Assembly (NCBI RefSeq): GCF_029255185.1
Contig: NZ_JAPUVO010000091.1
Location: 1-43,545, forward strand
DNA length: 43,545 nt
Origin: Propionivibrio sp.
Lineage (GTDB): Bacteria; Pseudomonadota; Gammaproteobacteria; Burkholderiales; Rhodocyclaceae
Reading direction: 5' to 3'
In this document: positions 951 through 24,541 of the stretch, in pieces
How the letters are laid out: each line of letters opens with the position of its first letter
How positions within the stretch are numbered: the stretch's first letter is position 1
Notes under the pieces: model-generated
What the model saw: only the letters and a program-made list of their open reading frames with translations
What the model was told of the DNA's origin: nothing
The model's database searches: none
Made by a program: the position numbers and the translations under genes

Positions 951-3122
951 TCATTGGAACCTGTAGATGTAGCGTATGCCGATGAAACTGGCGGATTGTG
1001 TTTTGTTGGACGTTACCGTGGTGCCGTCGACAACACCGGTATAGCCGGCACCCACACACCCGGTACAAGTTTGCGTTCCAGTGTAGTAGGCGAATGGTGA
1101 ACCACCACCATAATTCCAGGACCAATCATCGGTATGCCAACGCTCGTGGATCAGGTCGAAACGAAGATCCGAGCTTTTGTCGATGGCGTATTTTGCATCC
1201 AGTTTGAGACGTAGAAGGTTGTTTTTAATGTCCGGCAGCGGCCCCGAAGTGCCGGGAGCTGCCGTCGGATAGGTCGCTCCAGCGCCAGAGAGCGTCAGAT
1301 CCTGCGCCGTACTGCTGGTGCTACGGAACCAGTCAAGTCCTATACCGGCGTCGAGCCGGGCAGTTAGCTTCCCGCGTAAATTGAGCCCGAAAGAGTCGCC
1401 TACGTCCTTCAGGTGAGAATCCTTGACCGCATCGGCCGAACCATCCTTGGCCTGACGGAAACCAACTGCTCTGGCCTTGGTCCTCTCCAGGGAATACCAG
1501 GCGGAAAGAAGCCAGTTGTCGGAGAAGGCATAGCTTCCGTCAACCGCGTAGAGTTGCGCACTACCGTCCCTCATCCCGTAGGGACGACCATCCTCGGGAT
1601 AAGTGTCCTGAGAGTGATCAATGCGCAATTGCAACGAAAGCTTGTCCAGAGGTTCCCAATCAAACGCAGCGCGCCATTTGTCACGGCTGCGGTCAGCGAT
1701 GTGCACCGGATTGATCTGGTTCGAATACGGACTCGAGCCGTTCGCAGCCAAGTAAGACGACCCGTTCCGATCGCTGTGCAGATAGCCCAGAGTGCCATTC
1801 AGACTGTCCGCGAGCGAACGGCGCACTTGAAGCCGGTAAGTGGTTTCATTGACTTCAGTTCGGAATGGAACATAGACCGTTCCGACCGACGGTTGTGAAC
1901 GATCCTGGCCGGAATAATCGACGCCCCCGGTCAGACTGAAATTTTCCGGCAAACGATAGGTCGCTTCAAGTTTCCCTGATGTCGTGGTGTATGACTGCGG
2001 GGTATTGTAAACACTAGCGACCCCCGTCGTATTGTTCCCGACAAATCCAGCCAATGGCGTTTTGTCATTCAGGTCGTAATAGCGAAGGTTGGCGGTGATC
2101 AACAGTTTGGGCATGGGTCGGGAACTCAGTCCCAGTTGCACCAATGTCGTATCGACTCGCCCATCCAGGTGTGACGGCGTACCGACGAAAGGTGCATTGG
2201 CGCCGGTGAGATCGTAGGAGGGCAGATGTTCGTCCTGCGTAGCCATCGAGTAGGCTACTTTAAAGGTGCCGCGCGTTGTTGGCGTAAATGCATAGCCACC
2301 ATCCAGAAAAATCTGATGCGCCTGATTGCTCAGCGGCAATGACATCGGCGTAGTCGCGGAAAAACTCGCGCTGGTGCCTCCGGTCACGCCATTTAACTGC
2401 TGGAGCAGCAACGAGTTGTGATTGTCATACCAGCTGCCATAGTATCCGCCCGAAAGCTGTAGTTGCTTACCGGTGTACTGCAACATCGCTTCAAGCTGCC
2501 GGGTAGTGCTGTCAATCGGTTCAACAGAGAATAGAGCAGCACTCCCCCATCCTGCCAGCCGGGTACCTTTCTTGTCCTCATTCTTGAAATCAATTTTAAA
2601 GTCGAGCCCTGGAAGAAGATTCTTGTAGCCGCCCAAACGCAACAACTCACGGGTCGTGCCGAGGTCGACATCACGCTTGGCGAACGACCCTAGATTGGTA
2701 CCAACGGTCACATTTGTTGTTCCGATTCCCTGCAAGCCTGTGTTGACCGTATAGGGGTTGTCACGTGGCGTCTTGTTATACTCGACGGAGCCACCGATAT
2801 CGCCCTGACGCAGGTATTCCCCTTTGATCTCACGGGCGTCCAGCCCCAGATTGGTGGCCTTTAGCTTCAACCAGGTACCGGTGGTGTCATCGCGTTTGAT
2901 GATGTCCGCGTCGAGCAGTCCATAGGCGCCCTTGTCACGCATGCCGTCATAGACGCCTTCGTGAGGACGGTCTGCTGACCAGTTGCCGATACCGACCGAG
3001 ATGGAACTGTCCGGCTTGGCCAGCTCATCGACATTGGGTTCCTCAGCCAGTGCGGGCCCAAAGACAAGCATCAGAGCAACCGACATGGCAGTTGGCCGGA
3101 AAGTTTTTAGCATGGTTTTCAT
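951..3122 (-). CDS. mtrB: MtrB/PioB-family outer membrane beta-barrel (decaheme-associated porin)
   Basis: This 723-residue protein has a signal peptide (about residues 1-26, ending ALA). The rest is a long run of alternating polar and aromatic beta-strand segments ending in IRYIYRFQ, as expected for a large outer membrane barrel. In this family the barrel sheaths a periplasmic decaheme cytochrome and carries electrons across the outer membrane. Length and partner fit MtrB/MtoB/PioB: the decaheme gene ends only 19 bases upstream. A GAGGGGG ribosome binding site precedes the ATG. The N-terminal CXXC found in Shewanella MtrB is absent from the mature N-terminus. A CTGC lies instead near the C-terminus (about residue 690), in a probable surface loop, and is not a heme site because no His follows. 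Function is inferred from family and neighbours, and the direction of electron flow is not evident. Confidence 0.85.
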   Translation of the reverse strand: MKTMLKTFRPTAMSVALMLVFGPALAEEPNVDELAKPDSSISVGIGNWSADRPHEGVYDGMRDKGAYGLLDADIIKRDDTTGTWLKLKATNLGLDAREIKGEYLRQGDIGGSVEYNKTPRDNPYTVNTGLQGIGTTNVTVGTNLGSFAKRDVDLGTTRELLRLGGYKNLLPGLDFKIDFKNEDKKGTRLAGWGSAALFSVEPIDSTTRQLEAMLQYTGKQLQLSGGYYGSWYDNHNSLLLQQLNGVTGGTSASFSATTPMSLPLSNQAHQIFLDGGYAFTPTTRGTFKVAYSMATQDEHLPSYDLTGANAPFVGTPSHLDGRVDTTLVQLGLSSRPMPKLLITANLRYYDLNDKTPLAGFVGNNTTGVASVYNTPQSYTTTSGKLEATYRLPENFSLTGGVDYSGQDRSQPSVGTVYVPFRTEVNETTYRLQVRRSLADSLNGTLGYLHSDRNGSSYLAANGSSPYSNQINPVHIADRSRDKWRAAFDWEPLDKLSLQLRIDHSQDTYPEDGRPYGMRDGSAQLYAVDGSYAFSDNWLLSAWYSLERTKARAVGFRQAKDGSADAVKDSHLKDVGDSFGLNLRGKLTARLDAGIGLDWFRSTSSTAQDLTLSGAGATYPTAAPGTSGPLPDIKNNLLRLKLDAKYAIDKSSDLRFDLIHERWHTDDWSWNYGGGSPFAYYTGTQTCTGCVGAGYTGVVDGTTVTSNKTQSASFIGIRYIYRFQ

Positions 3123-3141
3123 GAATCATCCCCCTCTCGAA

Positions 3142-4125
3142 TTAGCGACGGAAGCGCCCGGCAGTCGCACTATTTACCGTGCTATTGCCGCCGTGAATGT
3201 TCGTGTGACAGCTCATGCAACCTCGACCCACAGTGCCCAAAAAGCCTGTTCCGTTGGTTGTACCGTTAGGCAGGGTTGCAGCCTGACCTGGATGGCTGTC
3301 ATGGGAGTGGCATTCTTGGCACAACAGGGGAGAGCGCGCCTTGAGGAGATTGTCCACGTTCGTACCGTGGGGTTGATGACAGATTGAACAATCTTCCGAC
3401 ACCGGCTGATGGTTATGAACGAAGGGCCCGCGCTTCTCCATGTGGCAGGTGTAGCAGGTCTCGTTAGTGCTGTTCTTGACGAGCTGTTTCGGGTTATCGC
3501 CATGCACATTGTGGCAGGACGAGCAGGTCATCTTGCCCTCTATCACCGGGTGGTGCGAAGGCTTGTTGATCTGGACACGCTGCTCCTTGTGGCAGGTGAA
3601 ACAGGTCTCGGTCTGCGTTGCCTTGCCCATCACCTTGTCGTTTCTGGCGTGAACTTGATGGCAAGAGGTGCAGGCAAGATCCTGGGTGCTGTGCGCACTG
3701 CTCTGCCAGCCAATGCGGTTGCCACCCTGGTGGCAATCAAGGCAGGCACCATTGCGCTCAGCAGCGGAGGTCTTGGTTTTCTTGCGGAAATCGCGATCGG
3801 TCAGCGGCGGGCTATCGTTGCCTCGGTACGCCAGATGTTTTTCGCTCTCGCCATGGCAGTCGGTACAGGTCGGCGTCCGTCCGTCGGCCTTGGTACCATG
3901 TTTGGTCTTGCCAATTGACAGTACCGACGGGTGCAGGTCGAGCATTGTCGGCTTGGCATCGTCGGCTTCGTCATGGCAGCCGGTGCACTTGGCGTCGCCC
4001 TTCAAAATGAGGTCCTTGGGCGACTCGGCCGGCTTGGCGGGTGTAGCCGCCAAGGCAAGGCCTGAACCTGCACCCAGCAAGCCCAGCAAGACCGACAACA
4101 TGAAAAACTGGCGTAAACACTTCAT
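3142..4125 (-). CDS. mtrA: Periplasmic decaheme c-type cytochrome, MtrA/DmsE family
   Basis: This 327-residue protein has a signal peptide (residues 1-27, ending ALA) and exactly ten CXXCH motifs: CTGCH, CTDCH, CLDCH, CTSCH, CFTCH, CSSCH, CYTCH, CSICH, CQECH and CMSCH. Ten hemes in about 300 residues is the signature of MtrA, MtoA, PioA and DmsE. These sit inside an MtrB-type barrel and conduct electrons between periplasm and cell surface, for metal or DMSO respiration or for Fe(II) oxidation. The start is an ATG with a GGGGGA ribosome binding site 6 bases upstream. The barrel gene follows directly. No outer-surface MtrC/OmcA-type cytochrome is visible in the window, which is more like the mto/pio arrangement than the full Shewanella mtr set. 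Which acceptor or donor is used cannot be told from sequence. Confidence 0.92.
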   Translation of the reverse strand: MKCLRQFFMLSVLLGLLGAGSGLALAATPAKPAESPKDLILKGDAKCTGCHDEADDAKPTMLDLHPSVLSIGKTKHGTKADGRTPTCTDCHGESEKHLAYRGNDSPPLTDRDFRKKTKTSAAERNGACLDCHQGGNRIGWQSSAHSTQDLACTSCHQVHARNDKVMGKATQTETCFTCHKEQRVQINKPSHHPVIEGKMTCSSCHNVHGDNPKQLVKNSTNETCYTCHMEKRGPFVHNHQPVSEDCSICHQPHGTNVDNLLKARSPLLCQECHSHDSHPGQAATLPNGTTNGTGFLGTVGRGCMSCHTNIHGGNSTVNSATAGRFRR

Positions 4126-4271
4126 TGCATTTCCCCCGATTCACTCAATCCCTGGATTGGCAGGACGGCTGGCACGTCGTCCACTCGCTATGCCTTTGGT
4201 ACTCGTCCTAGGGTCGAGAGTGTAAAGAAACGTAAATAGCCTTGATATCAGCGCCAGGATTAAAAGCGGCA

Positions 4272-4285
4272 TAGGAAAATTCCTA
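4272..4285. promoter_or_regulatory. Perfect palindrome TAGGAA-AA-TTCCTA, candidate operator
   Basis: TAGGAA and TTCCTA are exact inverted copies separated by AA. The site lies in the 187-base gap between the response regulator stop and the decaheme cytochrome start, about 147 bases upstream of the latter. Its size and symmetry suit a dimeric NarL/LuxR-type regulator such as the one encoded next door. That link is an inference from position only. Confidence 0.4.
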
Positions 4286-4312
4286 CGTCGCTTTGTTTCC
4301 GCCTGTTGGCGC

Positions 4313-4963
4313 TCAAAAATCGGATGGAGCAGCCAACCCGTGGGTAATGGCGTAGCGAATCAGATCGACGGTGTTCGCCAAATTCATCTTTTGCAAGATG
4401 TGTGTTTTGTGCGTACTGATGGTTTTGACGCTCAGAGAAAGTTCGACACCAATTTCAGTCAGCCCGCGCCCGAGAACCAGCAGATTGAAAACCTGATACT
4501 CGCGGTCGGACAGGAGGTTGTGCGGCAGGGCGACAGTGGCCGGTCGGATGCCGCGAACCATGAGTTCGGCGACCTTATCACTGATATAGACGCCGCCCTT
4601 GACCACCTGCCGGATGGCAGCAACCAGTAGCTCACCATCGCTTTCCTTGGTCAGATAGCCCATGGCTCCGGCCTGGAAGGCACGGATAGCATACTGTTCT
4701 TCGTGGTGCATGCTAAGAATGAGAATGGGGAGATCGGGTTTTTCGTTCTTGATCATGTGGATCAGTTCCAGGCCGTTACGCCCAGGCATGGAGATGTCGA
4801 GCACCAGCACGTCCCAATCCTTCTCGCGCACCTGCTGCATGACCTCCAGCCCATTGGCAGCCTCGCCGGCCACGGCCAGATCGTCCGTATCGGCAAGAAT
4901 CTGCTTCAGTCCATCGCGGATAATGGCGTGGTCGTCGGCCAGCAACACTTTCAGTTTTTCCAT
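4313..4963 (-). CDS. NarL/FixJ-family response regulator (REC-HTH LuxR)
   Basis: This 216-residue protein has a receiver domain (about 1-120) with the acidic pair D10/D11, phospho-acceptor D56, S84 and K106. A LuxR-type helix-turn-helix follows (about 148-210), with LSDREYQVFNLLVLG and the recognition region SVKTISTHKTHI. It is the DNA-binding output of the two-component pair formed with the kinase immediately upstream. The kinase stop and this start share one base (TGATG), so the two are probably translationally coupled. The next genes in the same direction are the decaheme cytochrome and the barrel, so control of the electron transfer genes is the likely role. That is an inference. Confidence 0.92.
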   Translation of the reverse strand: MEKLKVLLADDHAIIRDGLKQILADTDDLAVAGEAANGLEVMQQVREKDWDVLVLDISMPGRNGLELIHMIKNEKPDLPILILSMHHEEQYAIRAFQAGAMGYLTKESDGELLVAAIRQVVKGGVYISDKVAELMVRGIRPATVALPHNLLSDREYQVFNLLVLGRGLTEIGVELSLSVKTISTHKTHILQKMNLANTVDLIRYAITHGLAAPSDF

Positions 4964-7026
4964 CAGGCTCTCTTTTGCTGCGCTGGAATAAAAACCTCGA
5001 TCAGGGTCCCGGCGCCGGGCGCCGTCGTCACAGCGAACTGCCCACCGAGGATCTGTGCCCGCTCACGCATGCCGACCAGGCCAAGATCGCCACACCTACC
5101 ATGATCATGCACAAAGCCGACCCCGTCATCATGGATCGACAAAGCCCATTGCACGCCCTGAAAATCGAGCCGGACCTTGACCCTGGTCGCCCGAGCATGG
5201 CGTGCGACGTTGGTCAGCGATTCTTGCAGCACGCGGAACAATGCCGTGGCCACTGTATCATCGTGTTGCGAATCGTCGGCCGGGAGAACCAGCTCTACCG
5301 GCAAGCCGGTACGCGCCGAAAACTGATCGACATACCAGCCCGCGGCAGCGGCAAAGCCAAGATCGTCGAGCACCAGCGGCCGCAGTTCGGATGACATGCG
5401 ACGAACCGAGGCAATGGTCTGGTCGATCTGCCCCTTAATGGCAGTGACCTTGTCCGCCAGCGCCTGCTGCCCGTCCACCAGGCGCCCGCCCAGCCAGGAC
5501 ACCTCCATTCGAATGCCGGTCAGCATCTGGCCCAGTTCGTCGTGCAATTCCCGGGCTATTCCCGTCCGCTCTTCCTCGCGAACACTTTGCAGCGAGGCCG
5601 ACAGTTCCTGCAGTTGGCGATTGGTTTCAAGCAATTCGCGTTCAGCGCGCTGGCGTTCGGTCAAGTCCCGGAAAACTGCGGTAAGCAGAGTTTTTCCCCG
5701 AAAAGTAGTGGTCGACAGGCTCAATTCGACCGGAAACTCCTGCTCGTCACGCAGTGATTCGATGATGCCAAGCAGAATTCTGCCGTCTGGCGAGCGCCAG
5801 CCTTCGTCCAGGAAGCGCAGCAGATTCGCCAGTTGTGCCTGGCTTAGGTAGCGCGCCAAGAGCTCATCGATATCACTGCCGATCGCTTCCTCGGCACGAA
5901 CGCCGAACATATGCTCGGCCGCAGCATTAAAAAAAACGACGCACTTCGCGGAATTCACCGTCACGATAGCGTCCCTGGCCGATTGAATCATGTGCCGCAA
6001 CTGCGCGTCACTGTCCTTCAACGCAGATTCGAGCACCCCTTTGCGCAGGAGATTGCGCGCCATAAGGAAAGTCACCAGTACGACGAAAAGAACGACCAGA
6101 ACGACGCCAGCAACAATCGGTCGCATGACCTGACGCCAGGGCGTCAGGGCATCGTCTTCAGTGACTGCCGCACCAACCACCAGCGGATAATTGGCGACCT
6201 GGCGGTAGGCGACAAATTGCCTCCCCGCAACCGACTCTTCACTGACAACAACCACCCCAGCCACCTGCTGCTCCTGCAATTTCACCAGCGTCGCCGAGTT
6301 CCCGATGCTTTTGCCGAAAAGCATTTCGTCATGCGGCTTGCCGGCCAGGAAAACCCCGTCACGATTGAGCAGCAGGATGCGGCTGACAAAATCCAGGCCT
6401 ATGCTGTCGTACAGCGACTCGAAATAGTCGATGTTGATCGCTGCCACCAGCACGCCACGGAACTGTTCATCAGCATCAAGCAGGCGCATGCTGACGTAAT
6501 AGGTCCACTGACCATCGACTCGCGCTTTTTCCGGTCGACTGATGAAAATCTCGTCGTTGCCACCGGCGACGAAATGGCTGAAAAATTCCCGGTCGACCAC
6601 GGACAAGCGCCGGGTGAAATCCGGGCGTGATGAATTGACGCCCAGACCCTGGCTATCGACCAGGAACAACGATGTCACCTGCGGCAGCCCGGCAATACGC
6701 GCTTGCAGCAGCAAATGGATAGGGCGGCTGTCGAGCTCGAAACGGCGACCAATGTCATCGGAAATTCGTTCTCGGGCGCCACGCATGGTCATGGCTACGC
6801 TCTCGAAAGTGCGTGTCGTCTGCTCGGAGAGAATTCGGGTCAGGCTGACGATTTCGCCCTGGGCGTGCGCCAGTTCCTTCTGGCGCAGATCCAGAAGCAA
6901 GGCAGTGGCCGAGATTACCGTCGCCAGAATCATGGCCAATGACAGCAAGAGCAGCGCCTTCACCGACGGAATCTGCCGCAGGCGGGCCTTCAGGCCAATT
7001 GATCGAAACACCAAACCGCTCTCCAT
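4963..7026 (-). CDS. Membrane sensor histidine kinase (periplasmic sensor, PAS, HisKA_3, HATPase)
   Basis: This 687-residue protein has a transmembrane helix at about 24-46, an extracytoplasmic sensor of about 260 residues that looks like a dCache-type fold, and a second helix at about 305-325. A PAS domain (about 345-460) follows. The HisKA_3 dimerisation region holds the phospho-acceptor His in ARELHDELGQ (about residue 492). The ATP-binding domain has DDGVGF and GLVGMRERA. This is the NarX/DegS-like kinase type that pairs with LuxR-type regulators, and the cognate regulator overlaps its stop codon. The periplasmic sensor suggests detection of a small molecule or redox-related ligand, which cannot be identified here. 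It is transcribed away from the ccm operon, with a shared gap of about 190 bases. Confidence 0.9.
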   Translation of the reverse strand: MESGLVFRSIGLKARLRQIPSVKALLLLSLAMILATVISATALLLDLRQKELAHAQGEIVSLTRILSEQTTRTFESVAMTMRGARERISDDIGRRFELDSRPIHLLLQARIAGLPQVTSLFLVDSQGLGVNSSRPDFTRRLSVVDREFFSHFVAGGNDEIFISRPEKARVDGQWTYYVSMRLLDADEQFRGVLVAAINIDYFESLYDSIGLDFVSRILLLNRDGVFLAGKPHDEMLFGKSIGNSATLVKLQEQQVAGVVVVSEESVAGRQFVAYRQVANYPLVVGAAVTEDDALTPWRQVMRPIVAGVVLVVLFVVLVTFLMARNLLRKGVLESALKDSDAQLRHMIQSARDAIVTVNSAKCVVFFNAAAEHMFGVRAEEAIGSDIDELLARYLSQAQLANLLRFLDEGWRSPDGRILLGIIESLRDEQEFPVELSLSTTTFRGKTLLTAVFRDLTERQRAERELLETNRQLQELSASLQSVREEERTGIARELHDELGQMLTGIRMEVSWLGGRLVDGQQALADKVTAIKGQIDQTIASVRRMSSELRPLVLDDLGFAAAAGWYVDQFSARTGLPVELVLPADDSQHDDTVATALFRVLQESLTNVARHARATRVKVRLDFQGVQWALSIHDDGVGFVHDHGRCGDLGLVGMRERAQILGGQFAVTTAPGAGTLIEVFIPAQQKRA

Positions 7027-19395: not shown

Positions 19396-19450
19396 CGCAT
19401 TCTAGCGCGTGGACAGGTACCTTATTGATCCTGAACGAAAGGCTGGAAAT

Positions 19451-20068
19451 ATGTATCACGGAGAACGATTCAATGCCTGGACCCATCTTGTCGGCACCCT
19501 GCTCTCGCTTGCCGGAGTTGGCCTTCTGGTCGTCATGGCGACGACGACGGGCGATCCGTGGCGGGTCGTCAGCGTCTCCATCTTCGGCGCCACGCTGATC
19601 CTCCTCTACAGCACCTCGACGCTCTATCACAGCGTGCGTGGACGCGCCAAGGTTATCCTGCGCAAGCTCGACCACTTATCGATCTACCTGCTGATTGCCG
19701 GCACCTATACCCCCTTCTGCTTGGTTACTCTGCGCGGCCCGTGGGGCTGGTCACTGTTCGGTGTGGTATGGGGACTGGCTGTTGTTGGCATTCTGCAGGA
19801 AATGAAGCCACGCTCCGAAGCCAGAGTCATGTCACTGATCATCTACGCCGTCATGGGCTGGGTCATTATCGTCGCCGTCAAGCCGCTGCTCGACCATCTT
19901 GAGACTGCCGGCTTCATCTGGCTAGCCAGCGGCGGCGCACTATACACCATCGGCATTGTGTTCTATGCCTTCGATAGCCGCTTCAGGCACTGGCATGGCA
20001 TCTGGCATTTGTTTGTCATTGGCGGCAGCCTAGCCCACTACATCGCCATTGCACTCTACGTCCTGTAG
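19451..20068 (+). CDS. hlyIII: HlyIII/PAQR-family seven-helix membrane protein
   Basis: This 205-residue protein has about seven membrane helices. It carries the family metal-site pattern: GERFNAWTHLVG at the N-terminus, LYHSVR in the middle and HWHGIWHLFVIGGSLAHY at the C-terminus. The His and Asp residues in these positions bind a metal in PAQR-type hydrolase-like proteins. Bacterial members were named hemolysin III but more likely affect membrane lipids or membrane energetics. The ATG at 19451 follows GAAAGG. An in-frame start at 19409 would add 14 residues outside the family pattern. It is divergent from the DUF4105-like gene, with only 55 bases between them. Confidence 0.88.
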   Translation: MYHGERFNAWTHLVGTLLSLAGVGLLVVMATTTGDPWRVVSVSIFGATLILLYSTSTLYHSVRGRAKVILRKLDHLSIYLLIAGTYTPFCLVTLRGPWGWSLFGVVWGLAVVGILQEMKPRSEARVMSLIIYAVMGWVIIVAVKPLLDHLETAGFIWLASGGALYTIGIVFYAFDSRFRHWHGIWHLFVIGGSLAHYIAIALYVL

Positions 20069-20112
20069 TTCTTGCTGCGACTTGGCAAACGCCTGACATG
20101 ACTTACAGATGC

Positions 20113-20565
20113 TTAGCCGTTGTTATTGTTGTTGTTATTGTTGTTGTTATTATTGTTATTGTTCGAATTTCCTCCGCCATCGTTTTGCTTCTTCCTCGCG
20201 GAAACACTGGCGGTAGCCGTTCCGGGCAGGGTCAGGATCAATCCGGACGTGCCGAGCATGACCAGTTTGCCGGTACTCAGGAATTCTGCGCCATCGATCA
20301 CCGAGAGCTTGCTGCCATCGCACCAGAGAGTGCGGTGCTGCGTCACTTCGGGCACGGCAAAGCTTTTCACCGCCTTGCCGCCGCTGTAACAATCGATCAT
20401 CGATTTGCTGTAGATCACGCAATCGTCCTGTCTGTGACTTTTCCCAGCCAGCCAGCGCACCAGCCATTCTTCGGTGGCGGTGCGTTCGGGACCGTCATTT
20501 AGGCGCAATGCGTTGAGAAAGCATTCGACGGTGTAGGCGGTTCGTTCAAGCTCCGGCGTGCTCAA
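20113..20565 (-). CDS. Small protein with C-terminal poly-asparagine tail, candidate radical SAM substrate
   Basis: This 150-residue protein has no recognised family. The first 110 residues are a folded-looking acidic to neutral region with four Cys (in VECFLN, DDCVIY, IDCYSG and LWCDGS). A linker follows with KKQNDGGGNS, then fifteen consecutive Asn and a final Gly. It starts at TTG (20565) with a good GGGAG ribosome binding site 7-8 bases upstream. The radical SAM/SPASM gene ends only 15 bases before this start, so the two are almost surely co-transcribed. A homopolymeric tail after a Gly-rich linker, next to a maturase, resembles leader-core organisation in ribosomally made modified peptides. 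That role is inferred. A plain low-complexity tail on an unrelated protein is the alternative. Confidence 0.7.
   Translation of the reverse strand: MSTPELERTAYTVECFLNALRLNDGPERTATEEWLVRWLAGKSHRQDDCVIYSKSMIDCYSGGKAVKSFAVPEVTQHRTLWCDGSKLSVIDGAEFLSTGKLVMLGTSGLILTLPGTATASVSARKKQNDGGGNSNNNNNNNNNNNNNNNG
20119..20163 (-). repeat. In-frame AAC/AAT trinucleotide tract encoding 15 Asn
   Basis: Fifteen codons, ten AAC and five AAT in irregular order, form the tail of the small protein. The mixture of synonymous codons argues that the amino acid, rather than an exact DNA repeat, is being kept. Changes of whole units would alter tail length without shifting the frame. Confidence 0.95.
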
Positions 20566-20580
20566 GGCGATTCTCCCGGT

Positions 20581-22428
20581 TCAAGGCAAGTAGTTGAATT
20601 CAAAATTCTGGAACGGCAGATTGATGGCCTGGATGTGGTAGAAGGCGTTGTTTTTTTGCTTTTGGTAATGGTACTCGCGCAGGGACAGCGTGGTGAAGAA
20701 GAGGTTATTGCGCACGCCCCGGCGGTAATGCTCGCGGTGCAGCTCGATCAGGCCGGCGAGATCGAGCATCAAGTAGTCGGCCCCCAGGCGGTTACTCGCC
20801 TGCAAACAACTGGCAAAACGCTGGTACGTAAACACGTGCTCCTGCTTGGCGCGCTGTTCGTCGCCATAAACAACCGACGTGTCACGCAGTAGTTGCAGGT
20901 ACAGCGTGTTGCGCAAAAATTCAGGGCAGTTGGCGTCAAACAGGCTGCGCCGAGTATGCAGCACGAGTCGGTCACCGGGCACCAATGTGTACCAGGTGGC
21001 GCGGTCCTTGAGCAGTTGTGAGCTAAGCGGCACGAGCTCATCCCGCACTTCGAGCACAAAGGCGGTATCGCTATAGAGCGCCTGAAGCACCGGGTCGACG
21101 CCGATCATGGCCTGTAGGGTGTTTTTATCCTCGGCCAAGTCGCTAGGCAGGCGAATGCTGGCGGGCGGCGCGACAGCAGGCTGCGCAAAAGCGAGATTCG
21201 GATGCATGTTGAGGCGATATTGCCGAATGTCTTCGCGCTGCTCATCCGGCGAGGCCGCAGGGAAAGAACGTGGATTGTCGGCATAGATGGCCTTCTGCAG
21301 AGTGCAGGTGTACGAGTGGCCGCTGGCATTCTGATGTTTGACCACCGGACAGCCGGTATGACACAAACCAAGGTGGTCACAGCGCTGGCAATTGTCATCG
21401 AAACCGTGCGCCTGATGAATGCGTTCGATTTTGCGCGCGCCGTTGGCGAGGATGTCATCGATACGGTCGGTAAAAATGTTGCCGTAATGGAACTCCTCAA
21501 GACCCTGCCCGCGCACACAGGAATACACCGAACCGTCGCTTTGCAGAAGGTAGAAGCGTTCGCCGCAGTTAACGGCGTTAGTGCAATAGCTTGGCTTGAA
21601 TTCGTCGAACCAGTTGCGGCGCAGACCATCTTCCAGTTCAGTTCCGATGAAGGCGCCCTTGAGCGCTGCGTAAAGCGCCATCTGTTGCGCTGGCGTGGCT
21701 GGCGAAAGCGCAGCATCACCCTTGTGGGCTCGATTCATCTCGGAGGCAAAAGCAAACATGATGTTGAACTGGTTCATGTCAAAACAAAGTTCGTCGTGAA
21801 TGAAACGAATGTCGTCAATGATCGCCGGAATGTCGTTCAGGTGTTCGCTGCACAGCGTGGCGGAGATTTTTTTTGCGTGCGGATAGCGCGCCAGCAGGCG
21901 GATATTCTCGTGTGTTCGCGCTAGCCAGTCGCGGCCCCCGCGGGTGGTGCGGTAGCGCGCATGCATGCTCAGCGGCAGGTCGATACTGGCGCTGATCGAG
22001 ACCTTGTGTTTGTCAAAAAGGTCATAGAAGGGTGCGAACTTGTAGAGGTTGGTCTTGATATGCGGTGACGATTTCCTGTGCCCGAGCGCGTTGATTGCGT
22101 CGAAATTTTCCAGGTAGTGGCTTCGGATCAGCGTAAAGAGTTCATCGAGCACGACTTCCGGCAGCGTCGTCACTTCGCCGCCATGCAGCGAGACATTGAA
22201 GGCCAGCACGCCGGCTTCGCGCAGGGCGTCGAGCGCGTAGCGCAGTGTGGCTACGGCGCGCCCGGCATCGACCTTCAGCGCCGCCTGCGTCGTCTGCTCG
22301 CCAAGGTAACAATAGGCGCAATCGAGATTGCAGCACAGCGTCGGCACGTAGAGCAAATGAATGCTGCGCCGGGCAACCGGTTCCGGCGCCAGCGTGGCTG
22401 CCAGGTCCATGGTCTGCGGATCAAGCAC
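20581..22428 (-). CDS. Radical SAM/SPASM-domain enzyme, candidate peptide maturase
   Basis: This 615-residue protein has the radical SAM cluster motif CNLDCAYC (C33, C37, C40), followed by the GGE-type motif LHGGEVTTLP. At about residues 270-375 is a SPASM domain with all seven expected cysteines: CGERFYLLQSDGSVYSC, then CQRCDHLGLCHTGC (CX2CX5CX3C), then a final SYTC. SPASM enzymes typically modify ribosomally made peptides or proteins using extra iron-sulfur clusters. The last 230 residues match no domain I know and may bind the substrate. The start is a GTG at 22428, which overlaps the upstream stop by 8 bases. An ATG 18 bases later is possible but has no ribosome binding site. The poly-Asn protein gene follows by 15 bases. 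Confidence 0.9.
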   Translation of the reverse strand: MLDPQTMDLAATLAPEPVARRSIHLLYVPTLCCNLDCAYCYLGEQTTQAALKVDAGRAVATLRYALDALREAGVLAFNVSLHGGEVTTLPEVVLDELFTLIRSHYLENFDAINALGHRKSSPHIKTNLYKFAPFYDLFDKHKVSISASIDLPLSMHARYRTTRGGRDWLARTHENIRLLARYPHAKKISATLCSEHLNDIPAIIDDIRFIHDELCFDMNQFNIMFAFASEMNRAHKGDAALSPATPAQQMALYAALKGAFIGTELEDGLRRNWFDEFKPSYCTNAVNCGERFYLLQSDGSVYSCVRGQGLEEFHYGNIFTDRIDDILANGARKIERIHQAHGFDDNCQRCDHLGLCHTGCPVVKHQNASGHSYTCTLQKAIYADNPRSFPAASPDEQREDIRQYRLNMHPNLAFAQPAVAPPASIRLPSDLAEDKNTLQAMIGVDPVLQALYSDTAFVLEVRDELVPLSSQLLKDRATWYTLVPGDRLVLHTRRSLFDANCPEFLRNTLYLQLLRDTSVVYGDEQRAKQEHVFTYQRFASCLQASNRLGADYLMLDLAGLIELHREHYRRGVRNNLFFTTLSLREYHYQKQKNNAFYHIQAINLPFQNFEFNYLP

Positions 22429-22879
22429 CGGCTACCACCGGCGATGCGCGGCGCACTTTCTCGATGATCTTGGCCGACACCTTGTTGAATTTGGCAGCCT
22501 TGTTTGCTGCGACCTTGTGTGCCTTGCGCGCATTGGTCGGGAATTTATCGCGTTCAAGCGTAAACGTAGCCCCGCTCGCCATTTTCAGATTCAGGCGGCC
22601 TTCGCCTTCATGCAGCGCTACTTGGGCCACGTTGGCGAAGTAGACAATGTCGTTACCGCAGACAAGATAGCGCGGGCCGAGGGCGAGGGTGCCCTGCCTT
22701 ACGAAAAAAACACCCAGCGGGATCACCAGCGCCATCAGCCCGCCTGGGAAAGCAAAGAAAGCCGCGATCAGGGCTGCTGCCAGACTGATAAGCATGAAGG
22801 TTTTGCGCTTGGCGGAAAAGGCAACGCGTCCACCGTGCTTGTACTTGAACACGGCCAGTTGGGGTTGCTCCAGATCCAT
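22421..22879 (-). CDS. Small membrane protein of unknown function, first gene of the radical SAM cassette
   Basis: This 152-residue protein has a hydrophobic hairpin at about 28-62 that forms two membrane helices. A soluble domain (about 65-112) has short alternating beta strands (RYLVCGNDIVYFANVAQVALHEG), somewhat like a bacterial PH-type domain. The tail is rich in Lys and Ala (about 115-145). I do not recognise the family. The ATG at 22879 has a GGGAG ribosome binding site. Its stop overlaps the radical SAM start, so it belongs to the same operon. It may anchor the modification complex or its product at the membrane, which is inference. Confidence 0.75.
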   Translation of the reverse strand: MDLEQPQLAVFKYKHGGRVAFSAKRKTFMLISLAAALIAAFFAFPGGLMALVIPLGVFFVRQGTLALGPRYLVCGNDIVYFANVAQVALHEGEGRLNLKMASGATFTLERDKFPTNARKAHKVAANKAAKFNKVSAKIIEKVRRASPVVAGA

Positions 22880-22990
22880 GCTTCACTCCCGTCTTGTGAA
22901 TCACGAGGGAAGTATCGCCTGCCACCTAATCGGGGTCAAATGATCCAGTCTATCCCTCGGCGCTGATGCTCAAGCACTCCATGACGGGGC

Positions 22991-22999
22991 TGCTAGAAT
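22991..22999 (+). promoter_or_regulatory. ilvAp: Candidate extended -10 promoter for ilvA
   Basis: TGCTAGAAT has an extended -10 form (TGN followed by TAGAAT, 5 of 6 to consensus) 30 bases before the ilvA ATG. No clear -35 box is visible, which is common for extended -10 promoters. Confidence 0.4.
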
Positions 23000-23029
23000 C
23001 ACGGGTTTCCTAGACGAGTTGTTACTGCC

Positions 23030-24541
23030 ATGCACCCCGATTATCTCGAAAAAATATTGACCGCGCAGGTGTACGACGTTGCGGTCGAAACACCGCTCGA
23101 TGCCGCGCCCAATCTGTCGGCGCGTATCGGCAACAGCATTCTGTTCAAGCGCGAGGACATGCAGCCGGTTTTCTCCTTCAAGCTGCGCGGAGCGTACAAC
23201 AAGATTGTTCAGCTTTCAGCGGAACGCCTGAAGCGTGGTGTGATTTGTGCCTCGGCCGGCAACCACGCGCAGGGCGTGGCGTTAGCCGCCGCCAAGGTGG
23301 GTTGCCGGGCGGTTATCGTCATGCCGACGACCACGCCGTCGATCAAGGTCGAGGCGGTGCGCAATCGTGGCGGCGAAGTGGTTCTGGCTGGCGATTCCTA
23401 CGACGGAGCCTACACCCGTGCGCTGGAACTGGAGAGAACCGAAAAGCTTACTTTCGTCCATCCTTTCGACGATCCTGAAGTCATCGCCGGCCAGGGAACG
23501 ATTGGCATGGAAATCCTGCGCCAGCACCCGAAACCGATCCACGCCGTTTTTTGTTGTGTCGGCGGCGGCGGGCTGATTTCAGGGGTAGCGGCGTACATCA
23601 AACGCTTGCGGCCGGAGACAAAAATCATCGGGGTCGAGGCCATTGATGCCGATGCCATGACCCGGTCCCTACAGGCCGGAAAACGAATCCGTCTTAAACA
23701 GGTCGGCCTGTTTGCCGACGGTGCGGCAGTGAAATACGTCGGTGAAGAGACCTTCCGCCTGTGCCAGTTGTACGTCGACGAAATGGTTTGTGTCGACACC
23801 GACGCCATCTGCGCCGCAATCAAGGATGTATTTGAAGATACGCGCGCCGTCCTCGAACCGGCGGGTGCGCTGGCCGTGGCGGGCGCCAAGGCCTACGCGG
23901 CACGTCACAAGCTGAAGGACAAGACGCTGGTGGCCGTTGCTTCAGGCGCCAACATGAATTTCGATCGCCTGCGTTTTGTCGCCGAACGTGCCGAGGTCGG
24001 TGAGCAGCGCGAAGCGGTGCTGGCCATAACCCTGCCTGAGCAGCCCGGCGCCTACAGGAAATTCCTCGCACTGATCGGTCAGCGCAACATCACCGAATTT
24101 AACTATCGTTTCAATGACCGCCAGGAGGCGCACGTTTTTGTCGGTGTTCAGGTTAGCTCGCGCGCCGAGTCGATCAAACTGGTCGAGCAACTGCGCAAGC
24201 ATGGTTACGCGACGCTTGATCTGACCGACGACGAAATGGCCAAGCTGCACATCCGGCATCTGGTCGGCGGCCATGCGCCGCAGGTTGATCACGAGATCGT
24301 CTACCGCTTTGAATTCCCCGAACGCCCTGGTGCGCTGATGCACTTTCTGAATCAGATGAGCGCCGGCTGGAACATCAGCCTCTTCCATTATCGTAACCAT
24401 GGCGCCGATTCCGGCCGCGTGCTGGTCGGCATGCAGGTGCCACCCGCCGAAATGAGCGCGTTCAGGAAATTCCTGAAAAATCTGGGTTATGCCCACTGGG
24501 ACGAAAGCAATAACCCGGCGTACAAGCTCTTTTTGGGCTAG
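23030..24541 (+). CDS. ilvA: Threonine ammonia-lyase, biosynthetic (IlvA)
   Basis: This 503-residue PLP enzyme deaminates threonine to 2-oxobutyrate, the first step of isoleucine synthesis. PLP-binding K51 sits in FSFKLRGAYNK. The SAGNHAQGVA loop and the tetraglycine phosphate-binding loop CVGGGGLISG are present. Two C-terminal ACT-like regulatory domains (about 325-400 and 420-500, with EQPGAYRKFLALI and ERPGALMHFLNQM) indicate the long, isoleucine-inhibited form. Length matches E. coli IlvA. The ATG at 23030 is the first codon giving the conserved MHPDYLEKILTAQVYDVA N-terminus. The next gene starts 34 bases downstream. Confidence 0.96.
   Translation: MHPDYLEKILTAQVYDVAVETPLDAAPNLSARIGNSILFKREDMQPVFSFKLRGAYNKIVQLSAERLKRGVICASAGNHAQGVALAAAKVGCRAVIVMPTTTPSIKVEAVRNRGGEVVLAGDSYDGAYTRALELERTEKLTFVHPFDDPEVIAGQGTIGMEILRQHPKPIHAVFCCVGGGGLISGVAAYIKRLRPETKIIGVEAIDADAMTRSLQAGKRIRLKQVGLFADGAAVKYVGEETFRLCQLYVDEMVCVDTDAICAAIKDVFEDTRAVLEPAGALAVAGAKAYAARHKLKDKTLVAVASGANMNFDRLRFVAERAEVGEQREAVLAITLPEQPGAYRKFLALIGQRNITEFNYRFNDRQEAHVFVGVQVSSRAESIKLVEQLRKHGYATLDLTDDEMAKLHIRHLVGGHAPQVDHEIVYRFEFPERPGALMHFLNQMSAGWNISLFHYRNHGADSGRVLVGMQVPPAEMSAFRKFLKNLGYAHWDESNNPAYKLFLG

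Follow-up and report, generated by a model that had tools for sequence, protein, structure and literature searches.

What does a radical SAM (S-adenosylmethionine) enzyme act on when its gene adjoins that of a small protein with a run of asparagine (Asn) residues at its C-terminus? The question is raised by contig NZ_JAPUVO010000091.1 of Propionivibrio sp. (43,545 nt; the whole stretch is called the window), where three minus-strand genes at 20113-22879 encode a membrane protein (P0003), a radical SAM/SPASM enzyme (P0002) and a small Asn-tailed protein (P0001). A first-pass annotation of this DNA had placed the three genes there and had taken the tail for the modified core. The genes were confirmed: the open reading frames (ORFs) of P0003 and P0002 overlap by 8 bases, and a gap of 15 bases separates P0002 from P0001. 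Comparison gives good support to the Asn tail as the site of action of the enzyme: an Asn-tailed protein accompanied it at 36 of 36 distinct non-phage loci, and enzyme and leader occurred in the same 8 of 150 family genomes. We consider it probable (roughly 0.78) that the cassette is a maturation system for a C-terminal Asn tail, the SPASM enzyme modifying the Asn run. A new radical SAM/SPASM maturase family predicted to act on C-terminal oligo-Asn tails is the best reading of the locus. The features are as follows (aa, amino acids).

22421..22879, minus strand: membrane protein P0003, 152 aa, a hydrophobic region followed by a soluble basic C-terminal domain (translation, hydropathy and homologs)
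20581..22428, minus strand: radical SAM/SPASM enzyme P0002, 615 aa, GTG start (ORF)
22309..22332, minus strand: CX3CX2C (C33, C37, C40; residues 33-40), motif of the SAM-cleaving [4Fe-4S] cluster (invariant in 24 homologs and 5 phage homologs aligned)
21304..21585, minus strand: SPASM region with eight invariant Cys (282, 288, 304, 347, 350, 356, 360, 375; alignments including phage homologs)
20584..21123, minus strand: C-terminal domain of P0002, residues 436-615 (alignment including phage enzymes)
20113..20565, minus strand: small tail protein P0001, 150 aa, TTG start (ORF; counterpart at 36 of 36 distinct non-phage loci)
20242..20565, minus strand: folded leader domain of P0001, residues 1-108 (AlphaFold2 model)
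20215..20265, minus strand: moderately hydrophobic segment of P0001 ahead of the tail, residues 101-117 (hydropathy)
20119..20163, minus strand: 15 Asn codons, AAC and AAT mixed, followed by GGC (Gly) and TAA (sequence)
22880..23029, no strand: intergenic region between the cassette and the divergent ilvA (gene positions and ilvA identification)

Pairing of the enzyme and the Asn tail in bacteria

Loci were retrieved via the enzyme and not via the tail. Thirty-three enzyme loci were assembled, 25 from one genome collection and 8 as family orthologs including that of the window's own genome. Two of them (L002 and L041) are the same DNA, leaving 32 distinct loci; with L057, L058, L068 and L069 the set comprises 36 distinct non-phage loci, window included. 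At all 36, a small gene whose product terminates in Asn-rich sequence with such a run was found beside or near the enzyme, which is the gene layout of a ribosomally synthesised and post-translationally modified peptide (RiPP): a leader with a C-terminal Asn tail, adjoining or near a maturase. When both strands of the 33 loci were scanned for runs of at least six Asn codons, each locus contained a single run, which closes the small gene.

P0001 has the 150 residues and the C-terminus first described for it, a Gly-rich linker, fifteen Asn and Gly (GGGNS-N15-G-stop). A variable tract length beside the enzyme had been proposed as a check, and the runs indeed span 9-27 Asn (median 15) in the 34 unmasked tails of the 36 distinct loci. 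A Gly followed by the stop codon ends 30 of the 36 tails. The others are Gly-Asn repeats in L053 and L058, Asn-stop in L054, Arg-stop in L069, a frame that reads on in L035, and L050, where masked bases break the frame at the Asn run. The L035 frame (L035:5824-6375) runs more than 40 residues beyond the Asn run near a contig end, possibly through an assembly error or stop loss.

Of the 492 Asn codons in the 34 unmasked tails, 301 are AAC and 191 are AAT. Adjacent Asn codons were the same in 204 of 458 pairs, while the within-tail shuffle mean was 238.7; 0.08% of 5000 shuffles were as low, a figure that is not a strict probability given that the tail sequences are related. Since AAC and AAT are mixed and alternate more than in shuffled tails, and a slipping repeat would do the opposite, the amino acid rather than a DNA repeat appears to be selected. 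The excess alternation may also reflect selection against slippage.

In the 150 genomes of the window's family, matches to the enzyme at an expect value (E) of 0.001 were obtained in 43. Eight of these are orthologs, at 1.7e-95 or better; the remaining 35 are generic radical SAM proteins (best 4.9e-13) and were set aside. The leader, searched without its tail, was found in exactly these 8 genomes, so that relatives of the small protein are not generally tail-less, an outcome that the first-pass annotation had named as one that would speak against it. Nor do enzyme homologs occur mostly without the poly-Asn protein, since all 36 distinct non-phage loci are paired; the exception is one distant phage. 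P0003 was detected at full strength in seven of the eight cassette genomes and as weak partial matches in two other genomes. For the eighth cassette genome (G138) the match spanned the enzyme only in part. The distribution is patchy, for the three listed genomes of the same genus (G052, G105 and G141) all lack the cassette. Culturable carriers include Acidovorax sp. 210-6 and Formivibrio citricus. The enzyme is also rare at higher rank: 3 of 369 genomes of the window's class matched at E 1e-60, own genome included, and 3 of 391 genomes of the class of L054 at E 1e-40, that genome included.

The AlphaFold2 model of P0001 had a mean predicted local distance difference test score (pLDDT) of 86-96 per 10-residue block over residues 1-100. 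Residues 101-117 fall below the 19-residue membrane threshold. In many proteobacterial relatives the segment ahead of the tail is hydrophobic and Ala-rich, and in several relatives it is signal-like; it could be a membrane or cleavage signal. BLAST matches of P0001 to its counterparts in L052 and L054 (Clostridia) are confined to the Asn region or the linker. Since these proteins are unlike P0001 outside the tail and the phage fibres described below are different proteins altogether, the Asn C-terminus is the feature that is shared. Neither P0001 nor P0003 matched a Pfam or NCBIfam family above cut-off, or a PHROGs profile at E 0.01.

The enzyme family and its phage branch

P0002 was matched by the NCBIfam SPASM model TIGR04085 (45.5 bits, cut-off 27) and by Pfam SPASM (23.3, cut-off 21.5). 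The first-pass annotation had described a 615-residue enzyme with CX3CX2C, which stands, and seven SPASM cysteines, which must be revised to eight invariant Cys downstream of the motif. With both models and these eight residues, P0002 is a member of the SPASM domain family, and cluster binding is predicted. Pfam Radical_SAM scored 20.8 against P0002, below its cut-off of 29.5, and at E 0.1 matched all 24 aligned homologs; the invariant C33, C37 and C40 in these 24 and the fold match place P0002 in the radical SAM superfamily. Its fold is nearest to anSMEcpe, then to ChlB and sactisynthases. Apart from the cluster ligands, no Cys is invariant in the enzyme alignment A1, C501 being nearly so. 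Among the best 25 of 38 NCBIfam matches to P0002, the generic TIGR04085 alone passes its cut-off; the curated cut-offs of DynA, DarE, GrrM, PapB and other named SPASM maturases were not reached.

The C-terminal region had been flagged as unassigned. Alignment and a search of phylum genomes identify it as a family-specific domain that the phage enzymes also have, with the motif FTTxxLREYHYQKQKxNAFYHIQAINLPFQN. The domain of the window's P0002 had zero matches in Pfam at E 0.1 and in PDB sequences at E 1. Among 398 genomes of the phylum it was found only in the window's own, where no other protein carries it. The PHROGs profile phrog_1802 ("radical SAM domain-containing protein") matched residues 28-612 of P0002 at 8.2e-43, along profile positions 49-550 of 556 and including the C-terminal third, and a phage enzyme at 1.5e-80. 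phrog_1802 was matched in 98 of 274 genomes and in 11 of 14 control genomes, so its radical SAM part is generic; among the matches listed, its last third was reached solely in the cassette genomes G000, G370 and G382.

Full-length homologs of P0002 (31-35% identity) are encoded in phage tail modules, namely in Campylobacter phage CAM-P21, a C. coli plasmid record and IMG/VR contigs. In a phage collection searched by tblastn, the full-length enzyme was found solely in CAM-P21. In the Campylobacter type the fibre gene comes first, then one encoding about 210 residues and then the enzyme; a DUF1353-like gene is next or follows shortly. Four of 16 matches (L089-L092) were dropped as partial, covering the radical SAM core only. 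There are 15 distinct phage enzyme loci, and the fibre-position gene is visible in 14. L078, L128 and L130, in which the fibre is cut off, were left out of the comparison; L078 is the locus that lacks a visible fibre-position gene among the 15.

The fibre-position gene ends in an Asn run at 13 of the 14 phage enzyme loci. Ten of the 13 share the N-terminus of the control fibres and end in NNNNY (seven), GNNF (two) or NNNNN (one). The other three, L083 (NNNNY), L086 (GNNS) and L087 (GNNF), have a different N-terminus, and no search identified these genes as fibres. Related fibres without the enzyme in the available stretch did not end in an Asn run in any of 13 cases; L137 (28%) and L143 (44%) are distant fibres, and in L131 and L133 the downstream stretch is shorter than 1.5 kb. 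Behind the annotated enzyme-less fibres, DUF4376 or an unnamed gene comes next. As background, the 263 longest non-overlapping ORFs in 22 of the phage loci were examined, and NN occurred in the last six residues in two beyond the 13. The phage comparison is thus a natural experiment, in which the Asn fibre end accompanies the enzyme at 13 of 14 loci and is found in 0 of 13 without it.

A membrane protein next to the enzyme was not consistent across phage loci. The phage enzymes of L074/L086 and L075/L132 look broken, the last part of one being out of frame and the gene of the other being two ORFs; the fibre-position gene beside the out-of-frame enzyme of L074/L086 ends in GNNS and not in an aromatic residue. 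In a 96 kb phage contig (L071, identical to L088 and L146) the enzyme has 35% identity to P0002 and adjoins a fibre-like protein and a Cys-rich protein of 172 residues.

Proposed chemistry and competing explanations

In the mechanism that we propose, the enzyme would bind the small protein, probably through the folded leader and its own C-terminal domain, and would modify the Asn run at the extreme C-terminus of the substrate, the step for which the comparison argues. The most likely chemistry, still a guess, is removal of a hydrogen atom from the Asn C-beta by the 5'-deoxyadenosyl radical. This position is the likeliest because described SPASM enzymes attack the Asn C-beta and the bacterial tails contain no Cys or aromatic partners. 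By analogy with related enzymes, the auxiliary clusters may then take a second electron, giving repeated oxidised or cross-linked Asn units; Asn-Asn links, dehydro-Asn and hydroxylation are possible outcomes between which sequence cannot distinguish. Bacteria would place the modification on a protein dedicated to carrying it, often next to a membrane protein; in phages the tail fibre would be altered in the same way at its C-terminal tip. The common principle would be an Asn-rich, chemically altered protein end. That one enzyme family turns C-terminal Asn runs into a new repeating chemical structure, on a bacterial carrier and on a phage fibre tip alike, is a claim that we favour by a narrow measure.

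Several observations weigh against a tail-maturation system. The modification itself is a prediction from comparison. Both locus sets contain near-identical members, so neither the 36 non-phage loci nor the phage loci are independent counts; L135 and L141, for instance, have the same fibre end and look like one phage. The 96 kb phage contig encodes the enzyme and has no Asn-ending coding-strand protein within 9 kb. Phage Asn runs are short, at 2-5 residues, and the last residue is Tyr or Phe in 11 of the 13, for which reason the phage substrate may differ. The small-protein profile was present in 8 of 10 locus genomes and missed those of L052 and L053, which have diverged carriers, so the carrier is not one tight family. 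Comparison of neighbours in 32 loci revealed no protease or transporter conserved beside the cassette, and release of a free peptide is therefore not indicated.

The Asn run might instead be a mere binding handle, the modified residue lying elsewhere in the leader or the Gly/Ser linker. Its wide variation in length (9-27 in the 34 unmasked tails) fits a flexible handle, and the leader holds well conserved residues. Yet the Asn end persists in L052 and L054, whose leaders are not matched by that of P0001 in BLAST, and in the phage fibres, which are different proteins, and no other shared motif was noticed, although no systematic motif search was made; we regard a handle as improbable. An enzyme that epimerises Asn to D-Asn, producing an alternating tail able to fold as a beta-helix in the manner of polytheonamide, deserves no more credence. 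EpeE uses a Cys as hydrogen donor, to which the lack of an invariant non-ligand Cys in A1 (C501 comes near) stands opposed; EpeE also comes well behind anSMEcpe (27.9), its alignment having a root-mean-square deviation of 5.5-6.2, and phage tails of two Asn are too short for a helix.

Less probable again is a tail that gives rise to a small redox cofactor or a free peptide, as in pyrroloquinoline quinone (PQQ) or mycofactocin. The layout of a C-terminal core with one SPASM enzyme resembles such systems, but no fourth gene is conserved beyond close relatives, and in phages the substrate would be a structural protein of the fibre. Hardly any weight can be given to a neutral DNA repeat. The run is trinucleotide-like and varies in length, and one of the 34 tails uses a single codon throughout; against this, 33 loci each hold one run of at least six codons, conserved across phyla, the codons alternate above shuffles and the terminal Gly recurs in 30 of 36 tails. 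Modification of the Asn tail thus remains the explanation that we prefer.

Neighbouring genes and comparison with known systems

The upstream gene had been described as encoding a two-helix membrane protein. P0003 has a single broad hydrophobic region, in which hydropathy analysis called one segment (residues 35-53, mean 2.28); two helices are plausible. The protein may anchor or export the product, as the first-pass annotation proposed. A P0003 homolog lies upstream of the enzyme in 27 of 33 loci. The loci lacking it are L008 and L050, which are cut short, and L033, L052, L053 and L054. In L033 (L033:1-1127) no P0003 homolog was found upstream of the enzyme within the available 1.1 kb, and L052, L053 and L054 encode nearby membrane proteins that have no BLAST similarity to P0003, that of L054 with weak zinc-ribbon matches under the cut-off. 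By reading of the sequence, another membrane protein beside the cassette in L058 is unlike P0003, and a potassium-channel-like membrane protein after the tail gene in L068 (L068:3628-4329) has four hydrophobic segments. Upstream of the cassette in L052 (L052:670-2346) lies a gene whose product combines a B12-binding and a radical SAM domain.

A search of 32 loci for a further conserved member of the cassette found none beyond close relatives; the leftover shared clusters around the cassette resemble antisense shadows or synteny among close relatives. A defence role was dropped, as none of the three cassette proteins matched PADLOC at E 0.001. A cassette promoter is likely to lie within the 22880..23029 intergenic region, and Rfam had no match across window positions 19400-23100. 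Elsewhere in the window, positions 951-7026 encode an MtrB/PioB-type outer membrane porin, a multihaem cytochrome and a two-component system, likely an extracellular electron transfer cluster.

The protein libraries searched contained no described family for this system, and among the matches listed from the open-licence PMC literature there was no report of an Asn run as a radical SAM substrate or of radical SAM-modified tail fibres. We know of no RiPP class with a homopolymer substrate; to our knowledge, neither a homopolymeric core nor the maturation of a phage fibre by a radical SAM enzyme would have a precedent. If the proposal is true, it would define a maturase family with a homopolymeric substrate, give the radical SAM genes of phage tail modules a concrete role and add a previously undescribed protein modification.

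Judged by its gene layout, the cassette would work like a RiPP maturase system, with core modification and cleavage as predicted steps. The closest fold to P0002 is anSMEcpe, an anaerobic sulfatase maturase (PDB 4k36-4k39; 17-18% identity), in an alignment that excludes the extra C-terminal domain of P0002, whose partner is an Asn-tailed protein. Assignment to the sulfatase maturases themselves was rejected, the sulfatase_rSAM model reaching 72.8 bits against P0002 with a cut-off of 349.45. The radical SAM protein ChlB with its precursor leader (PDB 9gm3, 9gmc) shows 14% identity and covers residues 21-390 only. phrog_1802 covers both P0002 and the phage enzymes and is catalogued without a substrate. 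Campylobacter phages CP220 and CPt10 encode 11 and 12 radical SAM proteins, discussed as metabolic in the portions of the source drawn on here (PMC2853527); the likeness is limited to phage-borne radical SAM proteins and the same host genus, and those portions make no link to a fibre end.

DynA was the top NCBIfam match of P0002 (2.5e-20), both being SPASM enzymes, at 72.8 bits against a cut-off of 450. From the cyclophane and dynobactin maturases (DynA, XncB, OscB, AmcB) the cassette differs in that aromatic residues available for cross-linking are absent from its Asn tails. Triceptides, in which an aromatic residue is joined to the one two positions on, are likewise unlike the cassette runs, although 11 of 13 phage tails do have a final Tyr or Phe. 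Thioether formation from a core Cys, as in sactipeptides and ranthipeptides, is not matched by Asn runs that contain no Cys. According to the relevant passages of PMC11002830, XncB, OscB and the dynobactin enzyme form their link at the Asn C-beta, as does the Streptococcus Cys-Asn ranthipeptide maturase. The Streptococcus peptide differs from the cassette in its Cys, whereas the tail proposed here as substrate is an Asn run without Cys.

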